A DNA stretch of 20,340 nucleotides from a virus. The stretch is from the IMG/VR virus record IMGVR_UViG_3300009068_000242, positions 1 through 20,340 of that record, one strand, 5' to 3'. Made by a program: the position numbers and the translations under genes. Under the pieces are notes generated by a model. The model searched no databases, was not told the origin of the DNA, and saw nothing but the letters and a program-made list of their open reading frames with translations. Every line of letters starts with the position of its first letter. The first letter of the stretch is position 1. This document shows, piece after piece, positions 1 through 20,340 of this stretch.

Positions 1-1374
1 AGTCACAATCACGGCAGCAATCACTTCTTTCTTTGCTGTGGCACGAGCCTTTGGACTCATGTCTGCACCCACATTGCCTAAATAGTTTATTGCATCGGTT
101 AGTGCAACTACGGTCGCACCAAACACAGGAATGCTGGCTATCTGTTGATCAACAACTATGTCATCGGCTTGAGCTGCCAGAAAGAGCTGTGCCAAAGCCT
201 CAACATATTCTGGCGAACCTGGTGTTGCTGTTTCTAAAGTTGCGTTGGCGGTGTCTATAAGTAAGGCAACATCTTCTGCGGTCAAAGTGGTTGGATCAAT
301 CTCGGCTGGATTGAGCTCTGTGATTGAAGGCAAAGGCTCAGGGTTGGCAGGTTGAGAAGTTGGCTCTTCCACAGGTGGGTCAGGGATAACCACAGGTGGC
401 AACACGACAGGTGGATTGACCACAGGCGGTTCGGGAACAATAGGCGGTTCGGGAACGACCGGTGGCTGTGGATCAACAGGCGGTTCAGGGTCAACAGGCG
501 GTTCAGGAATCACAGGTGGAGGCGTAGGTTGAATAACCACAGAAACACCCGTAGAAGCCACCACAGGGTCGCTGTAAGCCGAATAAACACCAAGCGAGTC
601 ATTATCCGACCTGACCTGCACAGAGACTTCTGTAGCCTCTGGCAAGCCAGTTATGTCAGCCGATGTTTCGCTGGCACTGATCCCCCAACCAGGATTGTCC
701 CCGTAAGTCCAAGTCACCGCATAATGCTCAATAGGCGTATCGGTTTCGGGAGCATCCCATTTCACATGGAGGGTCGTGCCTTCAGCGACCACGGTCACAT
801 TCTGCGGTGGAATCAAACTAGGCTGCACAGCAGTTGCAGGGTCTTGCGAATACGCTGAAGCCGGAATCGCTCCAGCCAAATCCCCGAACTGATACGACAG
901 GATGTTACAAGCACCGCCACCGTATTCATACCACCAAGCGTCTAAACGCTGGCTCACTCCAGCCACAAAGTCGTGTTGCACGGTTGATCCGCCACAGCCT
1001 TTTAGAGTCCAATCTTCAATAACAGGTTCGCCATCTAAAGATAAATAAAAGCCATCGTCAGCCCATGATTGCAGAGCTACAGAACCAGTCACAGGCAAGG
1101 TGAGATAACCGGTGTAATGGATAGCCACAAAGTCTCCTTGGCAACCAGCAACAATACCGCCTCCCCAGTCATCGTTAATGCTTGAAACGCTTGTCCACGC
1201 TGTATCTGTGGCACACGGAATCAGTTGATCCGTTATTTGATGGTCGGGAAGAGACCTCGGATCAAAGGTATAGACATCAACTTTCAAGCCTTCCACCGGA
1301 TCAGCAAACGCTGGCATTCCAGTAACAATTGAGAGCCATGCCGAGATTGCTAAAACAATCAAGCATCGCTTCAC
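1..1374 (-). CDS. Secreted PA14-FN3-proline-rich surface protein, 3' end beyond window
   Basis: The frame is open from a GTG at 1374 to base 1 (458 codons) and continues outside the window. The GTG has an AGGAG nine bases upstream, inside the end of the preceding gene, whose TAA is four bases away. Residues 1-24 form a Sec signal peptide: a Lys-Arg start, a hydrophobic core and an AFA|D cleavage site. Residues about 30-168 look like a PA14 domain, a beta-fold often sugar-binding, with the WADDGFYLSLDG signature at 104-115 and a YGGGA turn at 151-155. Residues about 188-275 resemble a fibronectin type III domain. Residues 282-350 are proline-rich repeats, then comes an Ala/Asp-rich alpha-helical region. 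A Sec signal is not expected on a virion fibre, so export to the host envelope is inferred. It could still be a receptor-binding or lysis-linked protein. The domain calls are good; the function is unknown. Confidence 0.8.
   Translation of the reverse strand, partial: MKRCLIVLAISAWLSIVTGMPAFADPVEGLKVDVYTFDPRSLPDHQITDQLIPCATDTAWTSVSSINDDWGGGIVAGCQGDFVAIHYTGYLTLPVTGSVALQSWADDGFYLSLDGEPVIEDWTLKGCGGSTVQHDFVAGVSQRLDAWWYEYGGGACNILSYQFGDLAGAIPASAYSQDPATAVQPSLIPPQNVTVVAEGTTLHVKWDAPETDTPIEHYAVTWTYGDNPGWGISASETSADITGLPEATEVSVQVRSDNDSLGVYSAYSDPVVASTGVSVVIQPTPPPVIPEPPVDPEPPVDPQPPVVPEPPIVPEPPVVNPPVVLPPVVIPDPPVEEPTSQPANPEPLPSITELNPAEIDPTTLTAEDVALLIDTANATLETATPGSPEYVEALAQLFLAAQADDIVVDQQIASIPVFGATVVALTDAINYLGNVGADMSPKARATAKKEVIAAVIVT
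367..507 (-). repeat. Proline-rich short repeat inside the PA14-FN3 protein
   Basis: Codons 290-336 of the secreted protein encode repeated PEPPVD, PQPPVV, PEPPIV and PDPPVE type units. At DNA level this is an imperfect 15-18 base tandem repeat built on GAACCGCCTGT. Such Pro-Glu-Pro stretches usually act as stiff stalks that hold a binding domain away from the wall or membrane. The repeat may vary in copy number by slippage. Confidence 0.8.
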
Positions 1375-5701: not shown

Positions 5702-6151
5702 TTAACCCTTGTATCTACTTAAAAATGCTTGAAGAAATATTTTGCCTGCTTTGGCTCTAACCTTGCGAGCAGATGGTTCAAGATAAGGATACCTTGCACC
5801 TGATTTCCAGCGTGGATTACCTAGCTCCAGCGACCTAGCGTAAACCATGGTCGGAAATACTTTGTAGGCGTATCCTGGAAAACCGCCTGCCGGAGTGATT
5901 TGGAAACTGTCTCGCAAATGACCTGACCTGCGATTTGGCGGTGATCCGTTGCCACCAATGTGACCACTTGGCTTCCAAGAGCGACCACGCAGTGAGTGAG
6001 GGTTATTGTTCAGCAGTTTCTGGGTTTCATAAACCAGATTTATGGCAACCTGTTTCACACCGAAATCGGCAGCAGATTCCACCTTGTCTTCTCGGTTCTT
6101 GATGGCAGACAGAACCTGAGCCATGTTCTTAATGTGTATTGGATCACTCAT
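5702..6151 (-). CDS. HK97 gp10-like tail completion / neck protein
   Basis: This 149-residue basic protein resembles the HK97-gp10 family: an N-terminal helix, a central SxRGRSWKPSG and PPNRRSGHLRDS stretch (about 53-84), then YARSLELGNP (about 107-116), the family-typical Y-x-x-x-x-E-x-G segment, and an aromatic YPYLEPSARK end. Family members help join tail to head or seal the tail. The ATG overlaps the TGA of the frameshifted chaperone (TGATG), so translation of the two is coupled. Its place after the chaperones and before the tape measure is unusual: in most related phages it comes before the tail tube gene. The family call is good; the role is inferred. Confidence 0.8.
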   Translation of the reverse strand: MSDPIHIKNMAQVLSAIKNREDKVESAADFGVKQVAINLVYETQKLLNNNPHSLRGRSWKPSGHIGGNGSPPNRRSGHLRDSFQITPAGGFPGYAYKVFPTMVYARSLELGNPRWKSGARYPYLEPSARKVRAKAGKIFLQAFLSRYKG

Positions 6152-6680
6152 CAGCTCTGGTTCTTCTTAACTTCATCAACAATGTTGCCAATGGCAATAA
6201 TCCAATCAAGCGTGGCTGCTGGTTGCTCATCGACCTGAGTTGGTGTCCAGCCAAACCGCTCGGCAAGAATGAAATAAAGCCACTCAGCGTCAGGGTAATC
6301 AAAGTCACGATGTGCTTGACCACCCTGCACAATCCATTTTAGTCGTTGAAGTTTTCGCCAGTCGCTTTTGGGTCTGCTTCACCAGCATCCGTTTGAGCCA
6401 ACTGTGGGAAGATAGACGGCAACAAGCCCTGCACCCTGTTCTGCAACTCATCGTAATCAGGGATTGATAGCTCGCCTAAAGAATCTAATTTGGCACTAGG
6501 AATCAGCAGGTCAAAAGACCAGTCTTGGATCATGATGGCGATAATACGCTCCATCATTTCAATGCTGTTTCTGGTGTTTAGCTCGCCATCAATATAGATG
6601 GTTTTACGGTCTTTGTGCTTAAGAGATTTCGGGTCTCTAAAGGTTACGGTGTTGCCTGACGGCAGTTTTATGGTGTTCAT
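6151..6680 (-). CDS. Tail assembly chaperone, -1 frameshift product (lambda G-T type)
   Basis: Translation starts at 6680 and reads 105 codons to AAA at 6368-6366. It then slips back one base at CCCAAAA and reads AGC (6366-6364) onward to TGA at 6153-6151, giving a protein of about 176 residues. The added 71 residues include WLYFILAERFGWTPTQV and a C-terminal TLDWIIAIGNIVDEV stretch, typical of the T part of tail chaperones. This second frame has no start codon that would spare its conserved part, so frameshifting is the only good route. The longer form, made at low level, is thought to bring the tape measure together with tube subunits. The window for slippage is tight: a TGA in the -1 frame lies three codons upstream. 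The join is 6680..6366 plus 6366..6151. Confidence 0.8.
6339..6680 (-). CDS. Tail assembly chaperone, unshifted form (lambda G type)
   Basis: The 113-residue product begins MNTIKLPSGNTVTFRDPKSL, a beta-hairpin start common in tail chaperones of this class, followed by a mostly helical acidic body. It lies between the tail tube and tape measure genes, the conserved position for the G gene. The stop TAA is at 6341-6339, 25 bases after the slippery site. The start is clear: AGGAAGG five bases before the ATG, preceded by a second copy of the same purine run. It is present in assembly complexes but not expected in the finished virion. Confidence 0.85.
   Translation of the reverse strand: MNTIKLPSGNTVTFRDPKSLKHKDRKTIYIDGELNTRNSIEMMERIIAIMIQDWSFDLLIPSAKLDSLGELSIPDYDELQNRVQGLLPSIFPQLAQTDAGEADPKATGENFND
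6366..6372 (-). promoter_or_regulatory. CCCAAAA -1 programmed frameshift site
   Basis: In the zero frame the heptamer reads C CCA AAA. After a one-base backward slip the codons become CCC and AAA, so both tRNAs can re-pair well, as required for an X XXY YYZ site. It lies near the end of the first chaperone frame, with a -1 frame stop three codons upstream and the zero-frame stop nine codons downstream. CCCAAAA-type sites are among those reported for tail chaperone frameshifts. I see no strong stimulatory hairpin directly after it; a weak 5-bp stem (TGTGC/GCACA) lies about 50 bases downstream. Confidence 0.8.
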
Positions 6681-16386: not shown

Positions 16387-16592
16387 TATTTACCAATCAT
16401 GGCTTGGATTTCTTCATCAGTTAATCCTAACGCTTTGAGTTTTGCCTGAGCTGATTCTTTCGCTGTCTGCTGGTTGGAGGTTGATGGATCAGCAACTTCG
16501 GTTTGCTCCAGTATGTTGTGGAGTGGGTGTTCGTGTGTGTCATCGCAGTTTTCGCAGAAACCGCCTTCACCGTATGTGATGTTTAGTGCCAT
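16386..16592 (-). CDS. Small Cys/His (zinc-finger-like) head-region protein
   Basis: This 68-residue protein has a CENCDDTHEHPLH motif (C13, C16, H20, H22, H25) that could bind zinc, a flexible Ser/Thr/Gln linker, and a C-terminal helix ending LKALGLTDEEIQAMIGK. The latter end is common in small actinophage head proteins and may dock to portal or TerL. Both ends are TAATG overlaps with neighbours (fibre-like gene and portal), so it is surely translated. I do not recognise a named family. A role in portal or packaging assembly is inferred from place only. Confidence 0.75.
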   Translation of the reverse strand: MALNITYGEGGFCENCDDTHEHPLHNILEQTEVADPSTSNQQTAKESAQAKLKALGLTDEEIQAMIGK

Positions 16593-17356
16593 TAGAAACC
16601 TAACCAGATTGTGGGAACAAGTAAGGCTGTTCCGTTGTATGAGTATGTCGCTGGCAGACCGGTTTGACCTGACATCGTGAATCCTGTGGCATAGCTATTA
16701 CTTGGACTTGCTGTTGTGCCATAAGGTAATTGCCCTGTGAATGAGTAGCCTGTTGTTGCAGGGTCAAATCCGCCACCGCTAGATCCTGCAATCTGTAATG
16801 CCACCAGCCAATAAGTGCCAGCAGTTAAGGCTTGCGAAATAGTTATGGCTTTCCATCCTGATGTAGCGACAGACACCGTTCCTGCATCCAATAGTCTTGT
16901 TCCTGGTTTGTCGCTGGTCGCATCGTTATTGTAGATTCCTAAACGGATTACAGCACTAGCAGAACCTGTTTGCACATTCACGGCAATGCGAGTGGCTGTT
17001 GCTGATGTCCCAATAGAGAATGGTTGAGCATAAACTGTGCCATTAAGCGAGCCCCATGCACTTCCGCTTACTGTGTCATTAGGCAGCCAAGAATAGTAAT
17101 AACCTGAAACAGGTTTGATTGCCACCGTAGATGAAGATCCACCGCCACCACCAAAGGTGCTGACCGCTCCAGTCGCATCCACATATTTAGGCGTATTACT
17201 TGTGGTGTTCAACCAGGCGTCACCGTTTCTAGGGTTAGCCGGATCAGACGCCACATTCGGGAAAGTAAACCTGCGACCTAACTCCAACTTGGCAAGCCTG
17301 TTCTCAATACCAGAAATGATCCCTTGCAGGCTTGGTGGGAGATTTATGAAAGCCAT
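16592..17356 (-). CDS. Fibre-like virion appendage protein between terminase and portal
   Basis: The 254-residue protein has three visible parts: an N-terminal segment with a short helix (IISGIENRLAKLELG, 13-27) and NPRNGDAWLNTTSNTPKYV (41-59), a pattern that marks N-terminal anchors of phage fibres; a GGGGG hinge at 69-73; and a C-terminal beta-sandwich (about 80-254) with RIAVNVQTGSASAVIRLGIY and LTAGTYWLVAL, a domain seen on phage fibres and likely to bind sugar. The start at 17356 overlaps the TerL TAA (TAATG) with GGAG at good spacing; upstream codons to 17497 belong to TerL in another frame. A fibre-like gene here is unusual, and it may decorate the head rather than the tail. Confidence 0.8.
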   Translation of the reverse strand: MAFINLPPSLQGIISGIENRLAKLELGRRFTFPNVASDPANPRNGDAWLNTTSNTPKYVDATGAVSTFGGGGGSSSTVAIKPVSGYYYSWLPNDTVSGSAWGSLNGTVYAQPFSIGTSATATRIAVNVQTGSASAVIRLGIYNNDATSDKPGTRLLDAGTVSVATSGWKAITISQALTAGTYWLVALQIAGSSGGGFDPATTGYSFTGQLPYGTTASPSNSYATGFTMSGQTGLPATYSYNGTALLVPTIWLGF

Positions 17357-18699
17357 TAGTTCTCCAAAGAAGTGGAACAATAAGTGCAGATAACAGCCGA
17401 CCTTGTTATCGGCATCCTGCAAGACGGACAGAATTTCGCTAAAGACGCTAAACCCATAATACCTGACTGCGATTCCATCAGCTCGTGCATAGCCCACACC
17501 ATCGCATCCATACGGTCGGGGGAAGTGTTGGAGTCAGGCGTGTAGTTGCACATCTGATCTTCCAGCTCAGGGAGCAACCCAACATGGTGAGCTCTACGCT
17601 GTTCATACAAGGCTGCCACCGGTTCGGCTCGCACCAACTTACCTCTGGTCGCTGTCACCTTCTTGTAAGGCACAGACGGATCGACCTGCCGGAGGAGCAG
17701 TTCAATCATGTCTCCACCGTTGTTTGTTTCACCGATAACACGGTCAGCCTTATAGTCGTGGAAAGCCTGCACAGCGACCCTAGCCCACCGCTCTGGCGAA
17801 GTTCTTAGGGTCAGGTCTTTCAGCACATAATAATGTCCATCATTTGTCATGCCTGCAACCACGATGCCTGTCTCATCGGACTGATCACCAGAAGTGACCG
17901 CAGGGTCTATCGCCACAACGACACGCATCAACGGAGGGTATTCGGTGACTCGTTCCTGGTCTATCAATGCGTGAGTCCACAACGCTCCATCAACAGAATC
18001 AACAATCTCACCGTATAGCTCCTGCCTGCCGAGGCGTGTTCCCTCGTATCGGAGTCGCATTTCAGCGAGAGCGGTTTCAGCTAGGTTGGCAGCGTTATCA
18101 AATGTCGATCCACGCACAATCTCTATGCCTTCACGAGCGACCAAATCTTTAATAAGTTTCACCGGTCGAGGCGTTGTGGTGACCACGGTTTGTGGCTTAT
18201 CGCCAAGGCGTAAACCGAACTGGTACTGATCCCATGCGTCAGCGTATTTGAATGAAGCGAGCTCATCAAACCAGCCACCGTGGAACTGTGGCCCACGCAG
18301 ACGGTTCGGTTCTTCACCTGAATAGAGTTTGATTCGGCTTTTGTTGGTCAGCACAATCTCACCGATAGAACGGTTGTAGTCCTGCAGAGTTCCATACTCT
18401 CGTAGGATTTGCACCACACCGGAAACACCCTCGGCACAGGTATCTCTAGCGTCAGCGAAGGTCGGTGCAACAATCGCCCACCTGGTGTTGCGTTTCCGAG
18501 AAGCCTCAAAGGCAAGCCACTCGGCTGCCGACCTTGTTTTACCAAATCCACGACCAGCCAACAGCAACCAGACACGCCAGTCACCGTCAGATGGGATCTG
18601 ATTAGGTCTGGCTTGGAGGTGAGTCCATTTGACTCTGCGAGCTGCTATCAAGGAGCTCGACGAGCCTTCGGACTTCGGCATCAATGGTGTCACCGTCAT
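17356..18699 (-). CDS. terL: Terminase large subunit with C-terminal zinc ribbon
   Basis: The 447-residue motor protein has Walker A GRGFGKT (49-55), Walker B GGWFDE (141-146), coupling motif TTTPRP (174-179), and nuclease acidic residues D265 (VAIDPA), E324 (GETNNGGD) and D395/D398 (SPDRMDAM). It packages DNA into the prohead and cuts it. The last 25 residues add CPSC and CTYC pairs (C424, C427, C438, C441), a zinc ribbon not usual in this family. The start at 18699 gives a 98-base overlap with terS; ATG at 18681 or a later TTG at 18651 are alternatives, since no strong ribosome site marks any of them. The downstream gene begins in its stop codon. Confidence 0.95.
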   Translation of the reverse strand: MTVTPLMPKSEGSSSSLIAARRVKWTHLQARPNQIPSDGDWRVWLLLAGRGFGKTRSAAEWLAFEASRKRNTRWAIVAPTFADARDTCAEGVSGVVQILREYGTLQDYNRSIGEIVLTNKSRIKLYSGEEPNRLRGPQFHGGWFDELASFKYADAWDQYQFGLRLGDKPQTVVTTTPRPVKLIKDLVAREGIEIVRGSTFDNAANLAETALAEMRLRYEGTRLGRQELYGEIVDSVDGALWTHALIDQERVTEYPPLMRVVVAIDPAVTSGDQSDETGIVVAGMTNDGHYYVLKDLTLRTSPERWARVAVQAFHDYKADRVIGETNNGGDMIELLLRQVDPSVPYKKVTATRGKLVRAEPVAALYEQRRAHHVGLLPELEDQMCNYTPDSNTSPDRMDAMVWAMHELMESQSGIMGLASLAKFCPSCRMPITRSAVICTYCSTSLEN

Positions 18700-19066: not shown

Positions 19067-20269
19067 CTAACTTGTGGTTTCTGCGGTAATCAGTTCGGCT
19101 TTGAGTCCGGTCAAATCTTCCCATCGCTTTACGATGACATCGCAGTATTTCGGGTCGAGTTCCATCATGAAGCAGGAGCGGTTTAGTTTCTCTGCAGCAA
19201 TTAGGGTTGAGCCTGATCCACCGAATAGGTCGAGGACAGAGTCTTTCTGTTTGGTGCTGTTGGTCAACGCTCTGGCGATCAGTTCTATCGGCTTGGTGGT
19301 TGGATGGAGCTCAGATACTCTTGGTCGAGGTATGTTCCAAAGGTCGGTTTGTTTGCGGTCAACGACGGTTTGCAGTCTGCCTGCTCCTTCGCTCCAGCCG
19401 TACCAGATTGGCTCGTATTGTGTGTGGTAGTCCTTTCGGGATAGCACGAGAGCGTCTTTAGCCCAGATGATGGTTGATGACCAGTAGAAGCCTGCGTCTT
19501 GGAGTGATTTGTGGATTACAGGCCATTCTTGTGCTGACATGACCAGATAAATCAACGCACCAGGTTTGGTGTTTGTTTTCAGTTGGAGAGCGAATTGGTC
19601 GCAGAAACTGCCAAATTGGTCACCTAAATTGTCGTTTAGGATCTTGCGAGGCTTATAGTTTTGAATATTGCCTTCTTTGATGTCTCCGTAGTTTACATTC
19701 CATGGTGGATCAGTGAAAATGCAGTCGGCTAGTTCACCGTTCATGAGGAGGGTTACATCTTCGGCTTTTGTTGAATCTCCGCACATAAGGCGGTGGTTGC
19801 CGAGCTGATAAATGTCTCCGGCTTTGGTAATTGCTGGTTTGTCATCAAAGGTTAGGGGAATGTCATCGTCATCGCTTGGATCGATGAGTGGGTTGATTTC
19901 TTCAAAGCCGAAGGTTGAAACATCCCAGCCCATGCTGTCGAGGTCTATGAGTTGGTCTGCCAGGATTTTGGCATCCCAGTCTGCGAGTTCGGCTGTGCGG
20001 TTATCTGCGAGAGCGTAGGCTTTGGCTTTGTCGGGTGTCCAGTCCTCTGGGAGGCGTGTGGCGTCTATGTGTGTCCAGCCGAGCTCTTGTGCTGCCCTGA
20101 CTGTTCCGTTGCCTGCGATAATCACATTCTTGGCGGTGATAACGATGGGTTTGCGTTGACCGAACTGCTCAAGTGAGCCTGCAATGGCTTTGAGGTTCTT
20201 GCTGTCGTGGGTGCGAGCGTTCTCTGGGTCTGGTGTGAGATCCGCTATGGCTATCTTTTCAATGATCAT
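19067..20269 (-). CDS. ParB-like domain fused to beta-class DNA methyltransferase
   Basis: From the ATG at 20269 the protein has 400 residues. Residues 1-90 are ParB/Srx-like (LTPDPENARTH, then IIAGNGTVRAAQELGW at 50-65). Residues about 150-395 are a methyltransferase with the IV-then-I order of the beta class: TDPPWN at 186-191, HPTTKP at 322-327, DLFGGSGST at 347-355 and ELDPKYCDVIVKRWE at 370-384. It methylates adenine-N6 or cytosine-N4; the motif does not decide which. No partner restriction enzyme is in view, so it likely protects phage DNA or marks it for packaging. I chose 20269 because it overlaps the upstream stop (TAATG); an ATG at 20311 would lie fully inside the upstream gene and lacks a ribosome site. 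Confidence 0.9.
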   Translation of the reverse strand: MIIEKIAIADLTPDPENARTHDSKNLKAIAGSLEQFGQRKPIVITAKNVIIAGNGTVRAAQELGWTHIDATRLPEDWTPDKAKAYALADNRTAELADWDAKILADQLIDLDSMGWDVSTFGFEEINPLIDPSDDDDIPLTFDDKPAITKAGDIYQLGNHRLMCGDSTKAEDVTLLMNGELADCIFTDPPWNVNYGDIKEGNIQNYKPRKILNDNLGDQFGSFCDQFALQLKTNTKPGALIYLVMSAQEWPVIHKSLQDAGFYWSSTIIWAKDALVLSRKDYHTQYEPIWYGWSEGAGRLQTVVDRKQTDLWNIPRPRVSELHPTTKPIELIARALTNSTKQKDSVLDLFGGSGSTLIAAEKLNRSCFMMELDPKYCDVIVKRWEDLTGLKAELITAETTS

Positions 20270-20340
20270 TAGAACGGTAGGTTTTCGGTTGAGGTCATTG
20301 GTGGAGTCCATGAATCGGCTGTCGCTGAGGTTCTTTGGTC
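20269..20340 (-). CDS. C-terminal end of an upstream gene, partial
   Basis: The frame is open from the window edge at 20340 to a TAA at 20271-20269, encoding 23 residues ending TSTENLPF. The stop overlaps the methyltransferase ATG in a TAATG junction of the same kind used five times elsewhere here. The Glu-Asn-Leu-Pro-Phe end resembles the short acidic Pro-Phe tip of single-stranded DNA-binding proteins, but it is far too little to assign a family. The existence of the gene is likely; its identity is unknown. Confidence 0.55.
   Translation of the reverse strand, partial: DQRTSATADSWTPPMTSTENLPF

Follow-up and report, generated by a model that had tools for sequence, protein, structure and literature searches.

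A conserved two-gene unit of actinophages that may display exchangeable heads outside the infected cell

Exclusion proteins of the T5 Llp and TP-J34 Ltp type are small lipoproteins, built without a stalk, an exchangeable head, or a two-transmembrane partner. Unimolecular spanins, encoded in lysis cassettes, combine an N-terminal export signal, an extracytoplasmic stretch, and a C-terminal membrane segment. Proteins with two transmembrane (TM) segments and both termini inside (N-in/C-in) are common among holins. Pelagimyophages encode curli operons, from which CsgA and CsgB were reported to be missing and for which a role in sibling capture was proposed (PMC7029224). Another study of phage curli saw no clumping of infected cells and preferred a role in lysis (PMC9004378).

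The window analyzed here, meaning the whole stretch of DNA under study, is a linear IMG/VR fragment of 20,340 bp in which every gene lies on the minus strand. Its gene order begins with the packaging and head genes: ParB/N6-methyltransferase, small and large terminase, portal, a Mu-F-like protein, protease/scaffold, and capsid. These are followed by tail tube, tape measure, Dit, a 393-aa virion protein, a 76-aa TM protein, and finally the ORF for the stalk protein. As read from sequence, the ORF that heads the packaging genes (window 19067-20311) combines a ParB-like N-terminus with a DNA N6-methyltransferase domain. Between the large terminase and portal genes lies the gene for a 301-aa tail-like protein (phrog_21562/25864; window 16592-17497), an odd site for a tail or decoration gene. 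Two consecutive small ORFs preceding the tape measure (113 and 59 aa; window 6151-6680) resemble a tail assembly chaperone pair and may use a frameshift. The features of the stalk ORF and its neighbor are as follows.

1-1374, minus strand: ORF of the stalk protein (458 of ~480 aa), which begins with GTG at 1374 and runs off the contig before its 3' end
1303-1374, minus strand: Sec signal peptide MKRCLIVLAISAWLSIVTGMPAFA with predicted cleavage AFA|D, from sequence; kept in 111/111 relatives with a complete 5' end
841-1290, minus strand: PA14 domain (head) with four invariant Cys and an ADDGF motif; Pfam 1.9e-7
541-819, minus strand: FN3 domain, absent in many relatives; Pfam 8.9e-9, VIA-align Z ~15
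319-540, minus strand: proline-rich stalk, from sequence; the L004 model gives it a pLDDT of 43-52 (low confidence, disordered or extended)
1-318, minus strand: conserved helical C-terminal module, AQADDI..IPVFGA..NYLGNVGADMSP..KKEVIAAVIVT..., whose last 22 residues lie beyond the contig; complete in L002 and L004
1379-1609, minus strand: 76-aa protein with a C-terminal TM segment, a holin/haemolysin-like accessory that precedes the stalk gene; phrog_5225 match

A first-pass annotation had read the ORF as a Sec-exported protein composed of PA14 and FN3 domains, a proline-rich stalk, and a helical C-terminus. All of these elements are present. The PA14 and fn3 matches exceed their Pfam cut-offs (31.4 bits against 24, and 35.9 bits against 25, respectively). 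Moreover, an AlphaFold model of L004, a complete relative 80% identical to the window ORF, aligns with the PA14 domain of RsgI3 (6qe7; Z 16.8 over 136 residues, 2.2 A) and also with FN3 domains (Z ~15). The broader description, that of a secreted, stalked, probably sugar-binding protein encoded in an actinophage tail/lysis region, is likewise supported.

Signal peptides and TM segments were called by hydropathy rules. Under a lenient, stop-to-stop rule, a signal-peptide-like N-terminus is found in every one of the 111 family members whose 5' end is complete, versus 57 of 268 neighboring genes; a strict rule gives 85/108 versus 10/268, and the family members that fail it do so through start-codon or threshold artefacts. 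(In about a dozen members with coiled-coil stalks, including L150:1740-1887, L146:1749-1887, L131:1461-1611, and similar loci, the first ATG/GTG/TTG comes only after the signal, and the start codon is therefore probably unusual or misassigned.) The four PA14 cysteines are invariant (28/28), as expected for a head located outside the cytoplasm. Both features speak against a virion component, in which the protein would be an unusual tail or head decoration processed at the membrane. In the phage group of the window, the position of the gene directly after tail genes suggests such a role. However, the signal peptide is universal, the Cys pattern is of the disulphide type, the protein is paired with a two-TM protein (below), and other phage groups lack the tail-gene neighborhood, which together make a virion component highly improbable. 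The earlier argument that this is not the usual cytoplasm-assembled fiber is upheld, in that no relative lacking the signal was encountered among the 111.

Family conservation sits in the C-terminal ~85-130 residues. This module was identified at at least 280 viral loci (best-scoring matches, which are not independent of each other), in each case at the C-terminus of a protein that has an export signal. It comprises weakly hydrophobic helices, and the second has a mean KD of 1.66 (range, 1.06-2.23). The C-terminal helix attains a mean KD of at least 1.6 in 78 of 126 family members. The last eight residues are net positive in 128/128, and the C-terminus ends in R/K. The AlphaFold model of L004 has low confidence over this region.

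Two relatives, L004 and L002 (a complete protein of 480 aa, 97% identical), supplied the missing 3' end of the window ORF. Complete relatives are 476-480 aa long and end in ...AAVIVTQVATSAVAVASISSSSSIRRNK followed by the stop (also given as ...VIAAVIVTQVATSAVAVASISSSSSIRRNK). The first-pass annotation had suggested looking here for an LPXTG motif or a membrane anchor. The LPXTG motif is absent from both complete relatives, and a sortase anchor was rejected, despite the hydrophobic stretch and positive tail. With a mean KD of 1.66, anchoring by the stalk protein's own C-terminal helix is borderline. No lipobox was seen in the phage members, whose AFA|D-type signal lacks Cys.

A second gene may supply the membrane hold. 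The first-pass annotation missed it, as it did the exchange of heads and the copies on chromosomes described below. Directly 3' of the stalk gene is encoded a ~54-aa partner with two clear TM segments and a near-invariant core, QxWTLLGMxxAWxVLEGSAKxxxGxxI. Wherever a complete stalk gene is followed by at least 300 nt of sequence, the partner is present 3' of it (127/127), and in 87 cases it abuts or overlaps the stalk gene. The reverse search, starting from the partner, returned at least 597 loci, of which 81 (the 80 best viral loci and one chromosomal locus, partly overlapping the forward set) were examined. A stalk gene lies upstream in all 80 that have upstream sequence (77 detected by HMM, and three divergent). 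The partner proteins fall into 42 groups at ~85% similarity, so the pairing is not the property of one clone. Among the closest relatives of the window, the partner gene starts 148 nt past the stalk stop codon, and the window thus stops just short of it.

Actinomycetia phage DSL-LC01 encodes a 944-aa secreted FN3/beta-domain stalk protein (WJZ48438.1; L286:3708-6542) that apparently is fused to a partner-like two-TM hairpin. Its last 75 residues score 16.0 bits against the two-TM model; the highest score among 2000 shuffles was 5.4, and among holin-like controls it was 2.5. The match is remote and post hoc, and, taken as an apparent natural fusion of both genes, it would fit an anchor role. 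Strict reciprocal linkage together with this apparent fusion suggests that the stalk protein is retained at the membrane through its partner. Alternatively, the partner might act not as an anchor but as a holin or antiholin.

The head and the C-terminal module are separated by a stalk that is either Pro-rich or coiled-coil. Heads are of several types: PA14 (most often); PA14 plus FN3; a SUEL-like lectin (in L108, just under the Pfam cut-off); a GGDD beta domain; a Cys-rich mini-head; and other, uncharacterized heads. Some match no known family or fold; for the GGDD type, a search with a low-confidence model found no fold match in the PDB. Judging by their domain families, the heads probably bind sugar. 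Closely related loci differ in their heads: L119 and L121 have C-termini 93% and partners 91% identical, and unrelated heads; L178 and L185 have C-termini 92% identical, and again unrelated heads; and in the pair L024 and L058 (signals 93% and C-termini 92% identical) the head is missing. C-termini of 92-93% identity joined to unrelated or missing heads show head exchange between phages. One Cys-rich mini-head (CDIRVDDCWIEDNVCDFEFEDC) occurs in place of PA14 on two different backbones (L058:3446-4264 and L097:3563-4285), each of which retains its own signal peptide and its own C-terminus. These two headless or mini-head variants show that a large head is dispensable.

Head exchange would suit changing receptors, as would be needed for receptor masking or superinfection exclusion. 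Here, the displayed head would cover the receptor glycan, so that neither progeny nor competitors are absorbed by late infected cells and debris, an effect like that of Llp. Masking also fits the predicted surface location, the glycan-type heads, and the late, lysis-cassette position. However, head identity shows little correlation with that of the tape measure and minor tail genes (rho -0.01 to 0.13; 12 syntenic loci, non-independent pairs, receptor-binding protein unverified), and the phage members seen lack a lipobox whereas known exclusion proteins of this type are lipoproteins. Overall, masking seems rather unlikely. The adsorption block envisaged in the first-pass annotation keeps a place among several possible purposes, and the co-variation of head and tail genes, a weak test with n=12, does not favor it.

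The viruses that carry the pair are viruses of freshwater actinobacteria, and their hosts are Actinomycetota: of 30 long contigs, 21 encode WhiB, an actinobacterial marker. (Near the pair, 58 loci have a WhiB gene on the other strand, grouped as neighbor cluster 3, for example L073:1875-2174; neighbor clusters were formed by single-linkage BLAST.) Within three genes upstream and five downstream of the pair, an M23 peptidase and/or a holin-like TM gene is present at 110 of 131 loci, in varying order, and many of the remaining loci are incomplete. Pfam confirmed the M23 assignment in 5/5 tested, and the gene for the 76-aa TM protein was found in 12/12 family contigs tested. Large contigs (55-116 kb) carry the pair as well, often beside tRNA, RNR, thioredoxin, or terminase genes.

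The M23 endolysin and holin-like neighbors raise the question of a lysis factor. The pair might be a Gram-positive analogue of spanins or LysZ that links the membrane to outer glycans and breaks or loosens the envelope once holin and endolysin have acted, or the partner might be a two-TM holin regulated by the stalk as an external sensor. Further arguments for lysis come from co-variation of the C-terminus with the M23 gene (rho 0.81, owing in part to linkage), from the frequency of the two-TM N-in/C-in topology among holins, from the PA14 match to RsgI, a family of extracellular polysaccharide sensors, and from the LysZ precedent cited in PMC13056207. Against these stand the chromosomal pairs, distant from lysis genes; the many large phages that hold the pair amid RNR, thioredoxin, and tRNA genes; and the exchangeable heads, unexpected for a generic lysis factor. 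Overall, the lysis role seems rather unlikely as well.

Chromosomal pairs were found in four small-genome actinobacteria, amid host genes and away from lysis genes. By strict pattern, the C-terminal module was found in none and the partner in one of 84,980 bacterial and archaeal genomes. HMM searches were positive for 3 of 395 genomes of the class, plus one strong match in the family of G356; three partial matches (E ~1e-3) were left out of the count. A phage-exclusive family was rejected on the basis of these HMM matches in actinobacterial genomes. Clear stalk and two-TM pairs are present at L195:7012-8168, L283:6978-8629, and L284:8214-10678. At L285:8040-8581, the frame just upstream of the partner is a short ORF with the C-terminal module only, and a full-length paralogue is nearby. 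The L195 stalk protein has a possible lipobox (TAGC), and L284 and L285 encode Ala-rich coiled-coil stalks near glycosyltransferase-type genes.

The PA14 and FN3 domains are ordinary; the novelty lies in the architecture, in which a C-terminal module and a partner protein are obligately paired. Neither module nor partner has a confident match in Pfam, PHROGs, NCBIfam, or PADLOC: phrog_36579 and phrog_16956 (three members each) match weakly, DUF6463 and DUF6814 fall under the cut-off, NCBIfam gave one match below its cut-off, and PADLOC gave none. Isolated phages match the window protein only through PA14 and FN3, and none of the isolated phages and plasmids in the collection searched, which lacks records of the Planktophila-phage relatives, has the separate pair, the partner, or the C-terminal module. 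No described PA14 phage display or lysis protein, and no such module and partner pairing, was found in the open-access PMC literature. In function, the pair may yet prove to vary on a known theme of adhesion, exclusion, or lysis.

The best explanation, put forward tentatively, is an obligate two-gene display module of actinophages: a membrane-held stalk, encoded by the first gene, would show a sugar-binding head outside the infected cell. The stalk protein would be exported by Sec and lose its signal peptide, as the universal N-terminal sequence suggests. Its C-terminal module (two weakly hydrophobic helices and a positive end) would then be kept at the cytoplasmic membrane by the two-TM hairpin partner. 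The Pro-rich or coiled-coil stalk presumably spans the peptidoglycan and presents a glycan-binding head, which recombination exchanges between phages. Because the pair usually lies beside M23 endolysin and holin genes, the head probably appears late. Last and least certain, the infected cell might adhere to other host cells or to particles, with progeny then freed beside new hosts ("sibling capture"). Counting against this scheme are the heads outside known families and folds, the borderline hydropathy and low model confidence of the C-terminal module, the possible holin or antiholin nature of the partner, the dispensability of a large head, the remoteness of the fusion match, and the lack of clumping in the curli case. 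The two-gene unit is conserved across hundreds of actinophage contigs, and as a display module it would represent a new route to re-engineer the exterior of an infected Gram-positive cell.

Candidate purposes for display are adhesion ("sibling capture"), receptor masking, and help in lysis, with masking and lysis as close rivals. Pelagibacter phage HTVC008M bears on this choice. Its curli operon encodes AGE60352.1 (L287:3833-5158), annotated as hypothetical, which starts with a signal peptide and joins a PA14 domain to curlin repeats (Pfam 5.2e-8); the PA14 domain is 35% identical to that of L004 over 99 aa. This PA14-curlin fusion is a candidate for the fiber subunit reported missing from pelagimyophage curli operons. 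The same head type thus occurs on two devices in phages of dilute-water bacteria, which makes adhesion slightly the most likely purpose. A bolder proposal, speculative and itself somewhat unlikely, is that phages of unrelated streamlined aquatic bacteria independently built devices to display one PA14 head type, a stalk with its two-TM partner in actinophages and curli fibers in pelagimyophages, and use them to tether infected cells to other cells before lysis. If true, this would be a virus-encoded adhesion strategy for dilute waters.

Among known systems, the RsgI anti-sigma proteins of clostridia offer the closest solved PA14 fold and likewise tether an extracellular PA14 domain to the membrane; they are transmembrane anti-sigma factors with a cytoplasmic signaling domain, whereas the stalk protein would leave only a short positive tail inside. 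Superinfection-exclusion lipoproteins such as Ltp (PMC3952083) are, like the proposed display module, encoded by phages and exposed on the infected cell. With unimolecular spanins the stalk protein shares an export signal and a predicted extracytoplasmic stretch, and its C-terminal helix may correspond to their membrane segment; it differs in having no lipobox, a Gram-positive host without an outer membrane, and a large lectin head.

LysZ of corynephages is, like the stalk protein, an actinophage envelope protein encoded in the lysis region, with a proposed action on cell-envelope glycans. As described in PMC13056207, LysZ has 177 aa and a single TMD, is N-in/C-out and uncleaved, and is given no lectin head or two-TM partner. 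Membership of the stalk protein (350-480 aa, AxA-site signal) in the LysZ family was rejected on the basis of this architecture. The pelagimyophage curli operon (CsgF/CsgG) differs in its Gram-negative host, secretion through outer-membrane CsgG, and amyloid repeats, and has no Pro-rich stalk, C-terminal module, or two-TM partner. The two systems nevertheless have in common a streamlined aquatic host, a secreted and related PA14 head, genes for a surface structure, and a debated function.
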